DNA from: Thermoplasmata archaeon
GTDB lineage: Archaea; Thermoplasmatota; Thermoplasmata; Thermoplasmatales; Thermoplasmataceae
Reading direction: 5' to 3'
Assembly: GCA_021797735.1 (NCBI GenBank)
Contig: JAJZZE010000008.1
Location: forward strand, 1 to 33,379
DNA: 33,379 bases
The notes below the pieces were generated by a model. It was not told where the DNA came from and searched no databases. It worked only from the letters and a program-made list of their open reading frames with translations. This document shows, piece after piece, positions 26,606-32,883 of this stretch. Numbering within the stretch: the first letter of the stretch is position 1; every line of letters begins with the position of its first letter. The position numbers and the translations under genes are program-made.

Positions 26606-27268
26606 TTAAGATCTGGTAACCATCTTTGCAGCCAGCTGGAATAGCGATATTGAATGCATCCATACCCTTCCAGGACCCCTCATTCTGGCAAAGAACATAC
26701 CTTCACCCTCAAGTCCACCGAGAATCATAGTTTTCAATCCACCTATTCTGGCAACATTATATTCCATGCTATTATCAAAGGCCAGAACATGGCTCAACTC
26801 AACATTTATTTCTTCACCGGGTTTAAGTTCTCTCTCAACAACCTGTCCATGCCCGTGCAGGAAGATTGACCCGTTTCCCGAAAAATTCTCAAGGAAAAGG
26901 CCTTCCCCTCCAAAAATTCCCTGCCACATGCCCGCAAATTTGCTTGAATAACTTATAGACGAATCCATGCATAAAAATGCGTTAAATTCCGCTATAATTC
27001 CATTACCATTAAGGTCTATTTTCACAATTTTCCCGGGTAAAAATCCGGCAGAGCCTATTTCTCCGGGACCATCAACCTTTAACAGGAATACAGCAGAGCC
27101 AGCAAGCATGTGCGAAAACATTCCTTTGAGTCCGCCTGCCCTTACATCAAGTTTCGATGCTGCGTCTTTGTATATTAAATGCCCCGGTTCAATCATTACC
27201 GATTCGCCGCTGGATAAAACAGTTTTAAGGTACTGCACATCTTCACCAATAACATCATAGTCTACCAT
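26606..27268 (-). CDS. AIM24/TIGR00266 family protein
   Basis: 220 aa, all-beta protein with the AIM24 pattern: SGESVMIEPGHLIY (about residues 18-31), GGLKGMFSHMLAGSAVFLLK, VDGPGEIGSAGFLPGKI, then FLCMDSSISYS and the glycine-rich GIFGGEGLFLENFSGNG. Members occur widely in bacteria and archaea, assemble into trimers of double beta-helix type, and lack a settled role. TATA box 26 nt upstream. Confidence 0.85.
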   Translation of the reverse strand: MVDYDVIGEDVQYLKTVLSSGESVMIEPGHLIYKDAASKLDVRAGGLKGMFSHMLAGSAVFLLKVDGPGEIGSAGFLPGKIVKIDLNGNGIIAEFNAFLCMDSSISYSSKFAGMWQGIFGGEGLFLENFSGNGSIFLHGHGQVVERELKPGEEINVELSHVLAFDNSMEYNVARIGGLKTMILGGLEGEGMFFARMRGPGRVWMHSISLFQLAAKMVTRS

Positions 27269-27641: not shown

Positions 27642-27655
27642 ATATTTATATATAC
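27642..27655 (+). promoter_or_regulatory. TATA box of the AGPS-like/GlpD/DAGK operon
   Basis: ATATTTATATATAC is centred 26 nt upstream of the GTG at 27674 and predicts a leaderless first gene. Confidence 0.55.
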
Positions 27656-27673
27656 AGAACCTGTATAATATAT

Positions 27674-29176
27674 GTGAAAAAAATTCCAGTACTCTATGGG
27701 TATAACATTGACCGTGACTTTTCACGGGAATTTTCCTACATTGAGGATATTTTCGGGATAAAGTCTGATGAGATATGGGATGGTACCATTGGTATAGATG
27801 ATAAGGAATATATGAATATACCTGATGGGGCTAACAGTTATTTTGACAGGGCATATACCACTTTTGACCTGGAAAACAGATTCATTCATTCAACCGGAAA
27901 ATCTTCTGTTGAGGTTCTTAAATGGAGGCTTGGAATTAAACCGCACATAGTTGATGCTGTTCTGGAGCCGGATTATTCTAACGTATCTGATATAATAAAA
28001 AACCTGAAAGATTCTGGTTACAGGGCACTTATATATGGTGGCGGTACATCTGTTAACGGGTCCTTTATCATGGAAGATTCAGAAAAATTTGTATCAATGG
28101 ATACCTCCAGGTTAAATAAAATAAAAATAAATGGGTCTATGGTTACAGCCGGTGCCGGAGTAAGGGGTGCTGAACTTGAGGAGTACCTGAATACATATGG
28201 GCTGACATGCGGGCAGTTTCCGGAATCATTCAGATACTCCACAGTTGGTGGATGGATAGCCACAAAGGCAATAGGCCAGGAATCAAACCTGTATGGTGGG
28301 ATTGAAGATATGGTGATATCACTTAAAGCAGCAACATCCAGTGGAATATATAAGGATAATTGTGTACCCAGGGAATCGGCAGGCACAGAGGTAAAATCAA
28401 TTTTTACCGGAAGTGAGGGAAATTATGGAATCATAATGGAGGCAACATTAAAGGCTTTCAAAATGCCGGCACAGCGGTATTATAAATCTTACATATTCGG
28501 GGACTTTATTTCCGGAATTGAGTATATAAGGTCATTAAAAAATGTACCCACAGTACTGAGGTTTTCTGATGCAACTGAAACGGAAATAGCCATAAAGAGT
28601 TCTGGTGATACATTGCTTAAAAGGGTTTTCTTAAACTACCTGAAGATAAGACATGCTGATAGTGGGTGTATTATGGTAATGGTCAATAATGATAATAAAA
28701 ATGAGTATAGAGTGAAAAATGCTGTTTATACGGGCAAATATCCTGCGGTCCAGTGGTTCAGGGATAGGTATTCCAGGCCAGGAATTGCCAGTATTCTATG
28801 GAAACATGGCTATATCCCGGATACACTTGAAACATCTGCAGCGTGGGATGACCTCAAACCACTGTATGAAAGTACCATTGCAGTTTTTAATTCTATAAAA
28901 ACAGAACTAAAATTTTCTGGCATAATCATGGCACATATATCACATGTATACCTGACCGGTGCATGCATATATTTTACCATAATAATCAGATCTGACAGAC
29001 CCATGGAGCACCTGATGGAAATAAGGCATAAGATGGTAAATAATTTCCTGAAAAACCATGCAGCAATTACAGACCACCATGGAATCGGCACACTCTTCAG
29101 GGAATATTTAAGTGAGGAGGAACTATCCCTGCAGTCCAGGCTATACGATCCGGTTTTTTCGAGGTGGTATACATAG
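27674..29176 (+). CDS. FAD-linked oxidase resembling alkyldihydroxyacetone-phosphate synthase (AGPS)
   Basis: 500 aa FAD_binding_4-type protein. It has the FAD loop YGGGTSVNG (about 119-127), then PESFRYSTVGGWIATKAIGQ (from about 182), DTLETSAAWDDL (about 382), SHVYLTGACIYFT (about 421) and DHHGIG (about 467). These blocks match AGPS, which replaces the acyl group of acyl-DHAP with an alcohol to form an ether. AGPS has HHH where this has DHH, the tyrosine of the T-x-Y block is present, and the protein ends early (DPVFSRWYT), so the last family block is missing. Related FAD enzymes oxidise glycolate or lactate, so the reaction is open. First gene of the operon; GTG 27674 suits the TATA box. 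Confidence 0.85.
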   Translation: MKKIPVLYGYNIDRDFSREFSYIEDIFGIKSDEIWDGTIGIDDKEYMNIPDGANSYFDRAYTTFDLENRFIHSTGKSSVEVLKWRLGIKPHIVDAVLEPDYSNVSDIIKNLKDSGYRALIYGGGTSVNGSFIMEDSEKFVSMDTSRLNKIKINGSMVTAGAGVRGAELEEYLNTYGLTCGQFPESFRYSTVGGWIATKAIGQESNLYGGIEDMVISLKAATSSGIYKDNCVPRESAGTEVKSIFTGSEGNYGIIMEATLKAFKMPAQRYYKSYIFGDFISGIEYIRSLKNVPTVLRFSDATETEIAIKSSGDTLLKRVFLNYLKIRHADSGCIMVMVNNDNKNEYRVKNAVYTGKYPAVQWFRDRYSRPGIASILWKHGYIPDTLETSAAWDDLKPLYESTIAVFNSIKTELKFSGIIMAHISHVYLTGACIYFTIIIRSDRPMEHLMEIRHKMVNNFLKNHAAITDHHGIGTLFREYLSEEELSLQSRLYDPVFSRWYT

Positions 29177-30507
29177 ATTTTGAATTTTCATGGCATACAA
29201 GAAATAACATTCTCAGGGATATAGATGGGACAAAATTTGATGTTGCCATTATTGGTGGTGGAATTACAGGTGCGGGCATAGCGAATATACTTGCGGAAAA
29301 CGGAATCAGTACAGTTCTCATTGACCAGAATGACTTTGCCTCGGGTACCAGTTCCGGCTCCTCAAAACTTATCCATGGTGGACTGCGTTATCTACAGCAG
29401 GGAAGAATTTTAGAGGTTTACCATCTGTTAAAGGAGAGAAATTATCTACTCAAAAATACAGATATAGTTAAGAAGTTAAACTTCCGCATACTTACAGGAA
29501 AAAATATGTGGAATACATCAGAGATCAGGTTTGGATTATTTTTATATAATATTATGTCAGGTTACCTGCATTTACCACATTTTGTAAAAAATAATGGTGA
29601 ATATAAATCTAATATTTCTGGGTATTTTAACTATTATGATGGCGTAACCGTAGATTCAGAACTTGTAATATATAATATTGTGTCGGCTTTCAGGCACGGT
29701 GCGGCATGCCTTAATTATTGCAAACTTATAGGTGCATCAAAACATAGTGGAAATTACAGCCTTGAGATTGAAAATGTTATTACCGGGAAGAATTTTAAGG
29801 TTCATTCATTTATTGTTATAAATGCTGCAGGCCCATGGGGAAATACTGTATCATATATACTTGGTGCCGGCACAGTTAAGAATTTCCACCTGAGCCGTGG
29901 AATTCATATAGTGTTTCCATCAGAACTGTGGAATGACCAGAACGCTGTTGTTGTGAAGTCAGCAGTTTATGGGAGGCAGCTATTCATAATACCTGCTGGA
30001 AAGGTTGTATATACAGGAACCACCGATAATTTTGTGGATGCACCGGATAGTTTTTCCGTACCGGAAGGGGATATTAAATACCTGATTAATAGCATCAAAC
30101 CTTTATTTCCGCAATTCACAGAGGATAAAATAATTTACTCCTTCGCAGGCATCCGTGTACTCATTGGCAGTGGCAGCAACCCGGGCAAAATAACACGTGA
30201 TTTCAGCATTGGTGAATCGGATAGAATTATTACTGTTCTTGGCGGAAAGATTACAGACTATAGAATTGCAGCAAGGAAAACCGCAAAAATAGTGGGAAAT
30301 CTGATGGGTAAAAAACTGAAAATAAAAAATATGCCATATACTGATTATTCAAGGAATAAGGAGGATGTAATGGATAATATTTTAATGCATGAATGCCCAG
30401 TAAAAATAGAGGACGTAATACGCAGGCGGATTGCTGCGAGCATATATGATCCAGAGCAACTTCCGGCAATTATAAACAGGCTTGCTGATACATTTGATGG
30501 TGAATGA
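29164..30507 (+). CDS. GlpA/GlpD-type FAD-dependent glycerol-3-phosphate dehydrogenase
   Basis: Oxidises sn-glycerol 3-phosphate to DHAP, passing electrons to the quinone pool. Up to 447 aa, with the FAD motif DVAIIGGGITGAGIA (about 27-41), the family signature SSGSSKLIHGGLRYL and a late GGKITDYRIAARKTAK. It overlaps the upstream oxidase gene by 13 nt. GTG 29164 is the ordinary start candidate, but it lies inside the ribosome-binding site GAGGTGG (29161-29167); ATA at 29173 sits five bases past it, so the true start may be ATA. The C-terminal domain is shorter than in bacterial GlpD. No membrane-anchor subunit is encoded next to it. Confidence 0.88.
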   Translation: MVYIDFEFSWHTRNNILRDIDGTKFDVAIIGGGITGAGIANILAENGISTVLIDQNDFASGTSSGSSKLIHGGLRYLQQGRILEVYHLLKERNYLLKNTDIVKKLNFRILTGKNMWNTSEIRFGLFLYNIMSGYLHLPHFVKNNGEYKSNISGYFNYYDGVTVDSELVIYNIVSAFRHGAACLNYCKLIGASKHSGNYSLEIENVITGKNFKVHSFIVINAAGPWGNTVSYILGAGTVKNFHLSRGIHIVFPSELWNDQNAVVVKSAVYGRQLFIIPAGKVVYTGTTDNFVDAPDSFSVPEGDIKYLINSIKPLFPQFTEDKIIYSFAGIRVLIGSGSNPGKITRDFSIGESDRIITVLGGKITDYRIAARKTAKIVGNLMGKKLKIKNMPYTDYSRNKEDVMDNILMHECPVKIEDVIRRRIAASIYDPEQLPAIINRLADTFDGE

Positions 30508-30509
30508 AT

Positions 30510-31382
30510 ATGAGGGTACATATCATTGTAAATAAATATGCGGGGAAAGGAAACGGGGAACAGATGATGGATGAAATAAAAACAATGCTAACAGGTGTTA
30601 ATATTTCCTCGTCATTTACAGAAAGAACTCCCGATGCCCTTATAAAATACATAAAGGAAAACCAGGATATAACCCATCTTATTGCCATAGGCGGTGATGG
30701 TACAATGAATCAGTGTGCCCAGGCCCTTGCCTGGAGCAATATTATACTTATCCCGGTTCCCGCCGGGACTGGAACAGATTTTGTTAGAACTGTGGGAAAA
30801 TTATCACCGGAAATAATTATGGATGTTATTAAAAATGATAATTTCCGGTACTGTGACCTTGGTAAAATTACCTCGGACATATTTTCCGGATTTTTTATAA
30901 ATGTTATGGAGGCGGGGATGGGGGGAGCAGTTATGAAACGTGTGAATTCAACCGGTGCAAGAAGTGGATTAACCATATCATCTTCCATATTAAAGGAGGT
31001 ATTAAGGGGCAATAAATACAGGCTTATCATGAAATCTGAAGAGAGAGATTACAGTGGGAATATTATGGATGTGGTTATTGCAAATGGCCAGTACTACGGC
31101 AAAGGAATTCATATATCCCCTGAATCAATACTGGATGATGGTTTTCTGGATGTACATATTATTAAATATATGCCGCGCCTTAAAACGCTATCAAAACTGA
31201 GGACATTAAAAAATGGGACATATATAAGGGATGAAAATGTGGTTAACCTGAAAATCCGTGAAGTATCCATTGATTCTGATGGCCCTGTAGAGATAGACGG
31301 TGAAAGTTTTGGTCCGGGAAAAATGAAAATAAGGGTGTGCCACAACGCATTGAAAATTTTCAGTCAGGATTTCAAACCCTGA
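30510..31382 (+). CDS. DAGK-family lipid kinase (YegS/DgkB-like)
   Basis: 290 aa of the diacylglycerol kinase catalytic family, which includes YegS, DgkB and sphingosine kinases. It has VNKYAGKGNG at the N-terminus, the ATP-site motif GGDGTMN (about 61-67), PAGTGTDFVRTVG (about 84-96) and ISPESILDDGFLDV (about 195-208). It should phosphorylate a lipid alcohol with ATP; an NAD kinase is less likely because the C-terminal part has the DAGK pattern. ATG 30510 is chosen because GGTGA (30499-30503) lies six bases before it; ATG 30504 would overlap the glpD stop but abuts that site. Last gene of the operon. Confidence 0.85.
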   Translation: MRVHIIVNKYAGKGNGEQMMDEIKTMLTGVNISSSFTERTPDALIKYIKENQDITHLIAIGGDGTMNQCAQALAWSNIILIPVPAGTGTDFVRTVGKLSPEIIMDVIKNDNFRYCDLGKITSDIFSGFFINVMEAGMGGAVMKRVNSTGARSGLTISSSILKEVLRGNKYRLIMKSEERDYSGNIMDVVIANGQYYGKGIHISPESILDDGFLDVHIIKYMPRLKTLSKLRTLKNGTYIRDENVVNLKIREVSIDSDGPVEIDGESFGPGKMKIRVCHNALKIFSQDFKP

Positions 31383-31656: not shown

Positions 31657-32883
31657 ATGAATAAGATAATGGTTATTGTTATAACATGGATAGTGATAAT
31701 ATCTGGATTTGCATCTGTTTTATATATAAGTAACGATACAAACAATAAAAACGGTAATAACCATAATAACACACCATATTATATTAAAAATGGCACTGGA
31801 CCTGCAGGGGCAGCAGGGTTCTATCCTGCAGGCATGCCCTTATCCCAGAAATCATCCTTACATAACTTTGCAATGTTCTCCTATAACAGGTATGGCATGA
31901 ATATGAGTTCAAACGCACTTGATCACCTTCAGTATACATCGGACCTTAATTTTATGCGGTGGTATGAATCAAATTATTATTTCATATCCCCGGGGCACAG
32001 GGGAATAACTAGAGCCAATGCCTCAGCACTTATTGGAATGCGGGAAAGGAGTAGCCAGTCTGCAAAAAGATCTGTGAATGCAGTTGTACAGTATGAGATG
32101 AACCAGCATTCAACAAAAAATAAGATCAATGCAATGTCTATTGCAGAACACCGTAAGGGTACTCTGGTATCAGAGAAAACCATAAGTTATGATAACCATA
32201 CAGCAGATATGCTAACCTACAGGTATTCACACAACAACCAGACCATAATGTACAACCTGGTTAGATATAATGGAAAGTTTATACTGACAGACCCTACATT
32301 CCGTCTCAACTCATTCACCATACACTGGGGATGGGACGGTATTATATCAGGAACCAGCTATAACCTCTATTTAAATTTTTACAATTATAACAGTGCAAAT
32401 GCCTTTAAGAATTTTGTTTGGGGTGCATTGACATTAACAGCAATTATAAGTGATATTATAGATGCTGCATTCTGGATTATTGTGGGTGCTGCCACTGCCG
32501 GTGCCTCTGTTGTTGCTGGTGTGCTTCTTGGTATAGTTACCGGGGTTGGTGGAGATTTACTTGGAACAACACCCCCAAATCAGATATACAACAACGTGAA
32601 TACATTATTCAAAAATGAATGGGGCTATTCCGGTAATTTCAGGCTAGTTTTTACTGCCAATCTCTGGGAGGGGGGGCTACTTCCAGAATTTGCTGTCTGG
32701 GGCAGGATCAATCCCGGGAATTCATTATACGAGGTATTTCAATCATTTCAGTATTTGACAGCACATGAAGCGGATAGTTTTGTTACAGGTTACTATAATG
32801 TCCTGACAAAGGAATATGGAACAAACAAATATAATTACATAGGCTCCCCCTCAGTATGGGAAAACTGGTTAAATAATTATTAG
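31657..32883 (+). CDS. Exported protein with a long hydrophobic hairpin, unidentified
   Basis: 408 aa. N-terminal signal anchor (about residues 4-24), then a hydrophilic Asn/Tyr-rich exterior region. From about residue 250 a long apolar stretch rich in Gly and Ala (FVWGALTLTAIISDIIDAAF and WIIVGAATAGASVVAGVLLG) forms a plausible helical hairpin. The tail (about 306-408) is again hydrophilic. There is no cysteine, unlike the exported proteins at the left end. The hairpin in a secreted protein recalls pore-forming toxins such as archaeocins, but no sequence family is recognised. A small three-TM gene follows closely. Confidence 0.65.
   Translation: MNKIMVIVITWIVIISGFASVLYISNDTNNKNGNNHNNTPYYIKNGTGPAGAAGFYPAGMPLSQKSSLHNFAMFSYNRYGMNMSSNALDHLQYTSDLNFMRWYESNYYFISPGHRGITRANASALIGMRERSSQSAKRSVNAVVQYEMNQHSTKNKINAMSIAEHRKGTLVSEKTISYDNHTADMLTYRYSHNNQTIMYNLVRYNGKFILTDPTFRLNSFTIHWGWDGIISGTSYNLYLNFYNYNSANAFKNFVWGALTLTAIISDIIDAAFWIIVGAATAGASVVAGVLLGIVTGVGGDLLGTTPPNQIYNNVNTLFKNEWGYSGNFRLVFTANLWEGGLLPEFAVWGRINPGNSLYEVFQSFQYLTAHEADSFVTGYYNVLTKEYGTNKYNYIGSPSVWENWLNNY

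Follow-up and report, generated by a model that had tools for sequence, protein, structure and literature searches.

An operon joining an alkyl-DHAP synthase homologue to a GlpD-type dehydrogenase and a lipid kinase in Thermoplasmatota: a candidate route for ether-lipid salvage

Alkylglycerol monooxygenase (AGMO), a tetrahydrobiopterin-dependent membrane monooxygenase, has been presented as the sole known enzyme for cleavage of the glycerol ether bond (PMC7911779; PMC3617469). Alkyl-DHAP synthase (AGPS) operates by a covalent ping-pong mechanism, and its catalytic residues have been listed together with their roles, including those of Arg419 and Tyr578 (PMC3509576). AGPS homologues in metagenomes are currently read as a sign that ether lipids are made (e.g., PMC11868695), and Agps matches in archaeal MAGs were noted earlier, without an interpretation in terms of ether degradation (PMC11868695). 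In the literature that we searched, mostly non-subscription journals, we found neither a described bacterial or archaeal AGPS-GlpD-DAGK cluster for ether degradation nor a demonstration of AGPS cleavage with water.

The stretch of DNA analyzed here (the window; 33,379 nt, contig JAJZZE010000008.1 of assembly GCA_021797735.1, to whose positions all coordinates refer) carries the following features.

27645 to 27654, plus strand: TATA-like element tttatatata (from a reading of the sequence)
27674 to 29176, plus strand: AGPS-like FAD enzyme (GTG start, 500 aa)
29164 to 30507, plus strand: GlpD-like FAD dehydrogenase (GTG start, 447 aa)
30504 to 31382, plus strand: DAGK-like lipid kinase of the YegS/DgkB type (ATG start, 292 aa, GGDGT motif)

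An earlier note, made from the sequence alone, had described these genes as overlapping or nearly touching, and the ORF listing shows that they overlap: the AGPS-like and GlpD-like genes share 13 nt, and the GlpD-like and DAGK-like genes share 4 nt. Given these overlaps and a TATA-like element 20-29 nt upstream of the GTG start of the AGPS-like gene, a single promoter for all three genes is plausible; a transcript from this putative element would be near-leaderless. The host of the operon is an acid-loving archaeon.

By sequence, fold, and phylogeny, the first gene encodes an AGPS homologue. Its Pfam domains FAD_binding_4 (5.5e-24) and FAD-oxidase_C (5.5e-12) both score over their cut-offs, and a sequence search of the PDB returned AGPS (2uuu) with 6e-51, while the best glycolate oxidase reached 4e-9. 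The top 37 matches of a fold search were all AGPS (E down to 4e-36), the first non-AGPS match being a D-lactate dehydrogenase (2e-22). The 30 archaeal AGPS-like sequences form one clade in the tree (SH-aLRT 100), which is distant from the GlcD-type paralogues of the host. The PDB search, the fold search, and the tree rule out that the protein is a glycolate or lactate oxidase; contrary to the outcome against which the earlier note had set its reading, the protein groups with AGPS rather than with lactate or glycolate dehydrogenases, and the gene order is kept. The presence of an AGPS-like enzyme in an archaeon is less unexpected than had been thought, since matches in archaeal MAGs were already known and the family is distributed across Thermoplasmatota.

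With the AGPS of Dictyostelium (2uuu) and guinea pig (4bby) the protein shares the two domains, the fold, and several active-site residues (guinea-pig numbering; R419, Y578, and R515 correspond to Dictyostelium R352, Y508, and R447). Retained are R296 (equivalent to R419), Y433 (Y578), and the second and third His of the HHH motif (H468 and H469), and the alignment contains the R419 and Y578 equivalents in all 30 archaeal sequences. In contrast, D303, R515, and H615 are replaced by E184, A372, and D467, respectively, and the C-terminal tail is absent. The position of the catalytic Arg515, which is reported to be important for AGPS catalysis, is occupied by G, A, Y, or S in 30/30 sequences; with this Arg gone from the Thermoplasmatales clade altogether, the enzyme could catalyze a reaction other than that of AGPS. 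R368, four residues before A372, is an invariant Arg in the same 30 sequences of this clade and may or may not stand in for the lost R515. The replacement of HHH by DHH had been recognized correctly and taken as a hint at a changed reaction; it occurs in 3 of the 30 sequences, all from the genus of the window, whereas the other 27 possess HHH, so that this genus-level detail is ruled out as the key change. The lack of the last family block had also been read correctly; this C-terminal truncation is common to one Thermoplasmatales branch, while the other (L036-L040) retains the tail.

The second protein (Pfam DAO, 2e-35) has the DAO fold and the G3P-site residues of the GlpD proteins from E. 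coli (2qcu) and Bacillus (3da1). E. coli R54, Y55, R317, R332, and K354, which we take from the 2qcu work to be the G3P-binding residues, are all retained (R75, Y76, R331, R345, and K362). It differs from these proteins in that the GlpD C-terminal domain is missing from its 447 aa and in that the aromatic residue at E. coli Y59 is replaced by Gly80, as is the case in most GlpDs of the trio; its score of 232 bits lies below the NCBIfam GlpD cut-off of 360 bits. In the tree, GlpDs encoded next to AGPS are interspersed with those that are not, and no specialized AGPS-tied GlpD clade is seen. Since nine relatives moreover possess GlpD without AGPS, GlpD may simply oxidize G3P. Glycerol use in Sulfolobus relies on GlpK, a GlpA-like protein, and CoxG (PMC11962113), and the host genome likewise encodes GlpK and a GlpA-like/CoxG-like pair elsewhere; the operon is separate from these genes, has no CoxG, and combines its GlpD with the lipid kinase and the AGPS-like enzyme. 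The operon GlpD should hence be dispensable for free glycerol, and a role as sole G3P dehydrogenase for glycerol is ruled out. The third protein (YegS_C, 1.6e-26; DAGK_cat, 1.7e-16) carries the GGDGT motif as IGGDGTMNQ and is the only DAGK_cat protein found in the host genome; we propose that it phosphorylates alkylglycerol.

The co-occurrence of these genes in other archaea, suggested as a check, was followed in 61 relatives, 32 with AGPS and 29 without. The kinase is present in all 32 AGPS genomes, and 27 of the others possess neither AGPS nor kinase; in the two relatives of the 61 with a kinase but no AGPS, a GlpD remnant adjoins the DAGK gene as a trace of the operon. Losses of AGPS and DAGK are concordant within three genera, and the order AGPS-GlpD-DAGK recurs across Thermoplasmatota. 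An iron alcohol dehydrogenase (Fe-ADH) is encoded by 29/32 AGPS genomes vs. 6/29 of the others, and in 18 of 21 same-contig cases it lies within 10 kb of the operon. Genes for Fe-ADH, aldehyde dehydrogenase (ALDH), an SCP2 carrier, and phospholipase-C-like proteins, and also AOR, often stand beside the operon in relatives, but the SCP2/Fe-ADH/ALDH set of the window's own genome is located on two other contigs. The AGPS-like gene of one Thermoplasmatota group is accompanied by GlpA, a CCG protein, and GlpK, and that of most others by GlpD; the type of G3P dehydrogenase beside AGPS is exchangeable.

The trio is also found in several bacterial phyla, and Rv2249c, Rv2251, and Rv2252 of Mycobacterium, for which the literature consulted gave no usable function, may be a counterpart. 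Among the best 68 of more than 560 bacterial matches by score, same-strand GlpD/DAGK genes lie within 3 kb of 22/30 AGPS genes in the group that contains the archaeal sequences and of 0/38 outside it, while the corresponding figures for an SDR are 0/30 and 21/38 (Fisher values ignore relatedness). Within the same best 68, acyltransferases and fatty-acyl reductases (FAR) are top neighbor families only of the SDR-type AGPS, and FadR-type regulators are neighbors of the GlpD-type. The archaeal clade falls with the GlpD/DAGK-linked set and not with the SDR/acyltransferase/FAR-linked one, and the window's operon has GlpD and a lipid kinase in place of the acyltransferase and SDR reductase that partner AGPS. 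Judged by its neighbors, the SDR-type branch would be biosynthetic, and we presume the GlpD-type set to be catabolic. A single alignment position, that of D303, tracks this split by gene partners: it is Asp in 40/40 sequences of the presumed biosynthetic side, Gln in 29/30 of the bacterial GlpD-type, and Glu in 30/30 from Thermoplasmatales.

We consider it somewhat more probable than not that the operon encodes the central steps in the catabolism of scavenged sn-1 alkyl-ether glycerolipids. Of the options raised by the earlier note, gene order, co-occurrence, neighbors, and the split among AGPS proteins favor the one in which ether lipids are degraded or recycled. We infer the lipid source, the substrate of GlpD, and the direction of the AGPS-like reaction; lipids of lysed cells have been proposed as food of acid-mine 'plasma' archaea (PMC3750248). 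A phospholipase-C-like phosphoesterase, an operon neighbor in several relatives, would release alkylglycerol together with other lipases, and the DAGK/YegS-type kinase, judged by its family, would convert it to 1-alkyl-glycerol-3-phosphate. The GlpD-type flavoenzyme, with its G3P core site intact, could then oxidize C2 of this product to yield alkyl-DHAP, and/or act on G3P itself. On alkyl-DHAP the AGPS-like flavoenzyme may run the covalent ping-pong chemistry toward cleavage. With its C1 proton acidified by the C2 ketone, the substrate would bond through C1 to flavin N5 and lose its alkoxy group, which would be released as the free long-chain alcohol; water (or a fatty acid) would then fill the vacant position to give DHAP (or acyl-DHAP). 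DHAP would enter central metabolism, and the SCP2/Fe-ADH/ALDH set might oxidize the alcohol to a fatty acid. Such a route would serve the same purpose as AGMO, but it would be flavin-based and O2-free at the cleavage step, and would act on a phosphorylated ketone.

In an unlikely but not negligible alternative, the AGPS-like protein works in the catabolism of G3P lipids or glycerol as an ordinary VAO-superfamily dehydrogenase that oxidizes, e.g., a glycerol-phosphate, glycerol, or hydroxy-lipid derivative without ether cleavage; GlpD and DAGK would then feed, or draw on, one glycerol-phosphate pool together with it. The loss of R515, the changes at E184, A372, and D467, the plain G3P site retained by GlpD, and the abundance of dehydrogenases in the wider superfamily are in keeping with it, as is the redox/glycerol setting of the group with the CCG Fe-S protein, GlpA, and GlpK; the CCG protein may, however, be the GlpC subunit of GlpA and no partner of the AGPS-like enzyme. 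Against it stand fold and tree, the invariance of two residues important for AGPS chemistry (the R419 and Y578 equivalents), and the adjoining alcohol- and aldehyde-oxidizing enzymes, SCP2, and lipid kinase, which point to a lipid alcohol as product.

It appears very improbable that the operon makes alkyl-ether lipids or ethers based on DHAP, the way eukaryotic and myxobacterial AGPS do. AGPS homology as such, the link of agps to alkenyl-ether lipids in M. xanthus (PMC11868695), and the SDR that three genomes of the window's genus have close to the operon or to its remnant speak for it. The idea of an unusual ether lipid is nevertheless disfavored because the host genome has no PF01553 acyltransferase, and hence no known acyl-DHAP source, and because biosynthetic partners occur only beside the other AGPS set; in addition, D303 is replaced, and oxidation toward DHAP by GlpD is the wrong direction for a last step. 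We regard it as equally improbable that the operon is a loose assembly in which GlpD serves ordinary G3P use, the kinase recycles lipids, and the AGPS-like enzyme is unrelated to both. The host does have a glycerol kinase, and in two relatives (L148 and L150) a GlpD without AGPS adjoins a glycerophosphodiester phosphodiesterase; yet the pairing of AGPS and DAGK with their concordant losses, the same trio in several bacterial phyla, and the separate GlpA/CoxG-like pair for glycerol argue against such a loose grouping.

If this salvage route is real, the operon and its bacterial counterparts would provide named, testable ether-cleavage genes, also in culturable bacteria such as Brevibacterium, which carries GlpD-AGPS-DAGK. 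AGPS homologues in metagenomes belong to sets with distinct gene partners and distinct residues at D303, and one of these sets may mark the consumption of ether lipids rather than their production. More tentatively, and with somewhat less confidence than doubt, we envisage a dedicated O2-independent flavin pathway for breaking glycerol ether bonds, common to many bacteria and Thermoplasmatota, that would lead from a lipid kinase through a G3P-type dehydrogenase to a 'reverse AGPS' and end in the oxidation of the alcohol and the aldehyde. In its strongest form, which is much less likely, this pathway would also handle the isoprenoid chains of archaeal lipids, against which the G1P stereochemistry of these lipids argues. 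A linked operon encodes a D-2-hydroxyacid dehydrogenase, a benzoylformate-decarboxylase-like enzyme, SCP2, Fe-ADH, and ALDH; given a 2-hydroxylase, this set would fit an alpha-oxidation of 3-methyl-branched phytanyl chains.

The operon consists of three overlapping open reading frames (ORFs), sharing 13 nt between the AGPS-like and GlpD-like genes and 4 nt between the GlpD-like and DAGK-like genes; the coordinates agree with the earlier note's placement of three genes that overlap or nearly touch.

27674-29176, + strand: AGPS-like ORF, FAD_binding_4 and FAD-oxidase_C domains
29164-30507, + strand: GlpD-like ORF, DAO domain
30504-31382, + strand: DAGK-like ORF, DAGK_cat and YegS_C domains
20-29 nt 5' of the first GTG of the AGPS-like ORF: TATA-like tttatatata, recognized from the sequence

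Directly upstream of the operon lies a gene for an AIM24-family protein (PF01987, 6e-55; 26606-27268, - strand), which is kept in the close relative G007. Downstream, an ORF on the + strand (31657-32883) specifies a protein of 408 aa that has a hydrophobic N-terminus and lacks Pfam matches; in a relative, a similar gene occupies this position (L137:12898-14136).

The first operon protein is an AGPS homologue. In phmmer searches against the PDB it matched the Dictyostelium (6e-51) and guinea-pig (7e-42) AGPS, with the best glycolate oxidase at 4e-9. An AlphaFold2 model computed with 18 archaeal orthologues (mean pLDDT 89) retrieved only AGPS chains as Foldseek hits 1-37 against the PDB (E to 4e-36), followed by D-lactate dehydrogenases (2e-22). 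The earlier note had suggested checking the phylogeny of this oxidase: in a tree of 110 rows, the 30 sequences from the Thermoplasmatales, the order of the host, form a single clade within the AGPS family (SH-aLRT 100; two pairs are identical copies of one record), and the GlcD-type paralogues of the host form a distant clade.

Catalysis by AGPS follows a ping-pong mechanism in which a Tyr base yields a C1 carbanion that forms a covalent adduct with flavin N5, after which the acyl chain leaves and the alcohol enters; R352, Y508, and R447 of the Dictyostelium enzyme were named as important (PMC3509576). We equated these residues with guinea-pig R419, Y578, and R515, the numbering of our alignment running three below that of the cited review. 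The equivalents of R419 and Y578 are invariant (R296 and Y433 in the window). At the R515 position, all 30 Thermoplasmatales rows have A, G, Y, or S (A372 in the window); 69 of the 70 other rows have R. Since this catalytic residue is replaced, we treat the protein as an AGPS-family variant in the proposed pathway and do not file it as an AGPS enzyme. Four residues N-terminal of this position, about one helical turn, all 30 Thermoplasmatales carry an invariant Arg (R368), and residues 368-377 are modeled as a helix; as a guess, R368 may take over the function of R515. The DHH for HHH reported in the earlier note is real but confined to three rows of the host's genus, and the missing C-terminal block is likewise real but represents a truncation of one branch.

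The order AGPS-GlpD-DAGK, or AGPS-DAGK with GlpD elsewhere, is repeated across the family and order. The co-occurrence that the earlier note had proposed to examine was found: among 61 relatives, AGPS and DAGK are both present in 32 and both missing in 27, with joint loss in at least one genome each of the genera g1, g11, and g25. Only G003 and G009 possess DAGK without AGPS, and a C-terminal GlpD remnant sits just upstream of each DAGK; these loci are operon scars. At L151:6632-8944 in G003, and at the corresponding position of G009, the remnant and an intact DAGK are followed by SDR and Fe-ADH genes, with AGPS gone, and in G003 a transposase-like gene adjoins the remnant. In 21 of 31 cases, GlpD and AGPS are no more than 3 kb apart, and nine of the 61 genomes have GlpD but no AGPS. 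An SCP2-associated Fe-ADH was present in 29 of 32 AGPS genomes vs. 6 of 29 others; where this gene and AGPS share a contig, they lie no more than 10 kb apart in 18 of 21 cases. Fisher tests over the 61 relatives, which ignore kinship, gave 2.6e-15 (DAGK), 2.7e-8 (GlpD), and 2.0e-8 (Fe-ADH). Recurrent Pfam neighbors are Fe-ADH, SCP2, ALDH, aldehyde:ferredoxin oxidoreductase, SDR, D-2-hydroxyacid dehydrogenase, a benzoylformate-decarboxylase-like TPP enzyme, and PF04185 phosphoesterase, a relative of acid phosphatase and phospholipase C.

The 80 best of 578 confirmed hits in a scan of named genomes comprise 12 loci from Thermoplasmatota and 68 from bacteria. The archaeal clade and 30 bacterial rows form a 60-row group (SH-aLRT 99, 110-row tree), outside of which stand the remaining 38 bacterial rows together with the eukaryotic AGPS. 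Among these best 80 of 578 hits, a same-strand GlpD or DAGK within 3 kb accompanies 22 of 30 bacterial rows inside the group vs. 0 of 38 outside; for a same-strand SDR the counts are 0 of 30 vs. 21 of 38. Pfam neighbors in this sample are GlpD (19 DAO matches), DAGK (9), and FadR-type GntR regulators (6) inside, and SDR, PF01553 acyltransferases, and fatty-acyl reductases outside. Ether-lipid synthesis needs acyl-DHAP, a fatty alcohol, and reduction of alkyl-DHAP, and the outside neighbors match these needs. The guinea-pig D303 position holds D in 40 of 40 AGPS rows outside the archaea-holding group and Q in 29 of 30 rows of the bacterial set joined to the archaea (the bacterial rows of both come from the best 80 of 578 hits). 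Of 20 further Thermoplasmatota rows, 19 also have Q, while E is found in 30 of 30 Thermoplasmatales and one more row. In verrucomicrobial and related SDR-type loci (L079, L082, L085, L089, L092, L098, and similar), the AGPS, SDR, and acyltransferase genes often have HMG-CoA reductase in their vicinity (10 loci from the best 80 of 578 gave 7 matches).

Our phylum survey found the AGPS family in 46 of 391 genomes. Since one further Thermoplasmatota group repeats AGPS-GlpD-DAGK and another combines AGPS with a CCG Fe-S protein, BFD-type GlpA, and GlpK, the types of G3P dehydrogenase and kinase are exchangeable, with the AGPS association holding. The clusters of the latter kind (L153-L163) also encode a Pyr_redox_2 protein and a protein of about 120 aa; the Arg at the R515 position is lost (A/S) in their AGPS-like genes as well.

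AGPS chemistry requires a C2 ketone. Cleavage of an alkylglycerol by this chemistry would need prior phosphorylation, for which a lipid kinase would be the matching activity, and C2 oxidation, for which a G3P-type dehydrogenase would be; the reaction would release a long-chain alcohol, which Fe-ADH/ALDH could take up, and DHAP, which could enter glycolysis. Judged from gene context, such an ether-cleavage route is the most likely function. Its weakest links are GlpD, whose site resembles that of a plain G3P dehydrogenase, and the lost R515. The stereochemistry of GlpD favors sn-1 alkyl G3P lipids of bacteria or eukaryotes over archaeal G1P lipids as substrate. Lipids of lysed neighbors, proposed as food for acid-mine Thermoplasmatales (PMC3750248), could feed the host. 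Agps hits in archaeal MAGs have been noted before, under lipid production (PMC11868695). We found no description of a catabolic AGPS-GlpD-DAGK cluster in the open-access literature searched; what appears to be new is an AGPS-family variant in a proposed catabolic pathway.

The window's DAGK_cat gene is the only one found in the host, and PF01553 acyltransferases were not found there by a search positive in 10 of 14 control genomes. For free glycerol the host does not need the window GlpD, because it has GlpK and, elsewhere, a pair of GlpA-like and CoxG-like genes in this order. The CoxG-like label was given from sequence and position (the family search gave no match); this set resembles the glycerol system of Sulfolobus (PMC11962113). 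The alcohol-oxidizing neighbor types of the relatives are placed on other host contigs.

C25, L131:5901-11486: HADH-TPP-SCP2-FeADH-ALDH operon
C53, L132:47-4123: HADH-TPP-SCP2-FeADH operon, with a PF04185-type gene on the contig

These operons are paralogous (D-2-hydroxyacid dehydrogenase, benzoylformate-decarboxylase-like protein, SCP2, Fe-ADH) and would fit alpha-oxidation of branched chains; the literature covered yielded no description of such a D-2-hydroxyacid dehydrogenase/SCP2/Fe-ADH operon. In two relatives without AGPS, GlpD lies next to a glycerophosphodiester phosphodiesterase (L148:5140-7288, L150:4133-6294), which suggests an archaeon using G3P from bacterial-type phospholipids.
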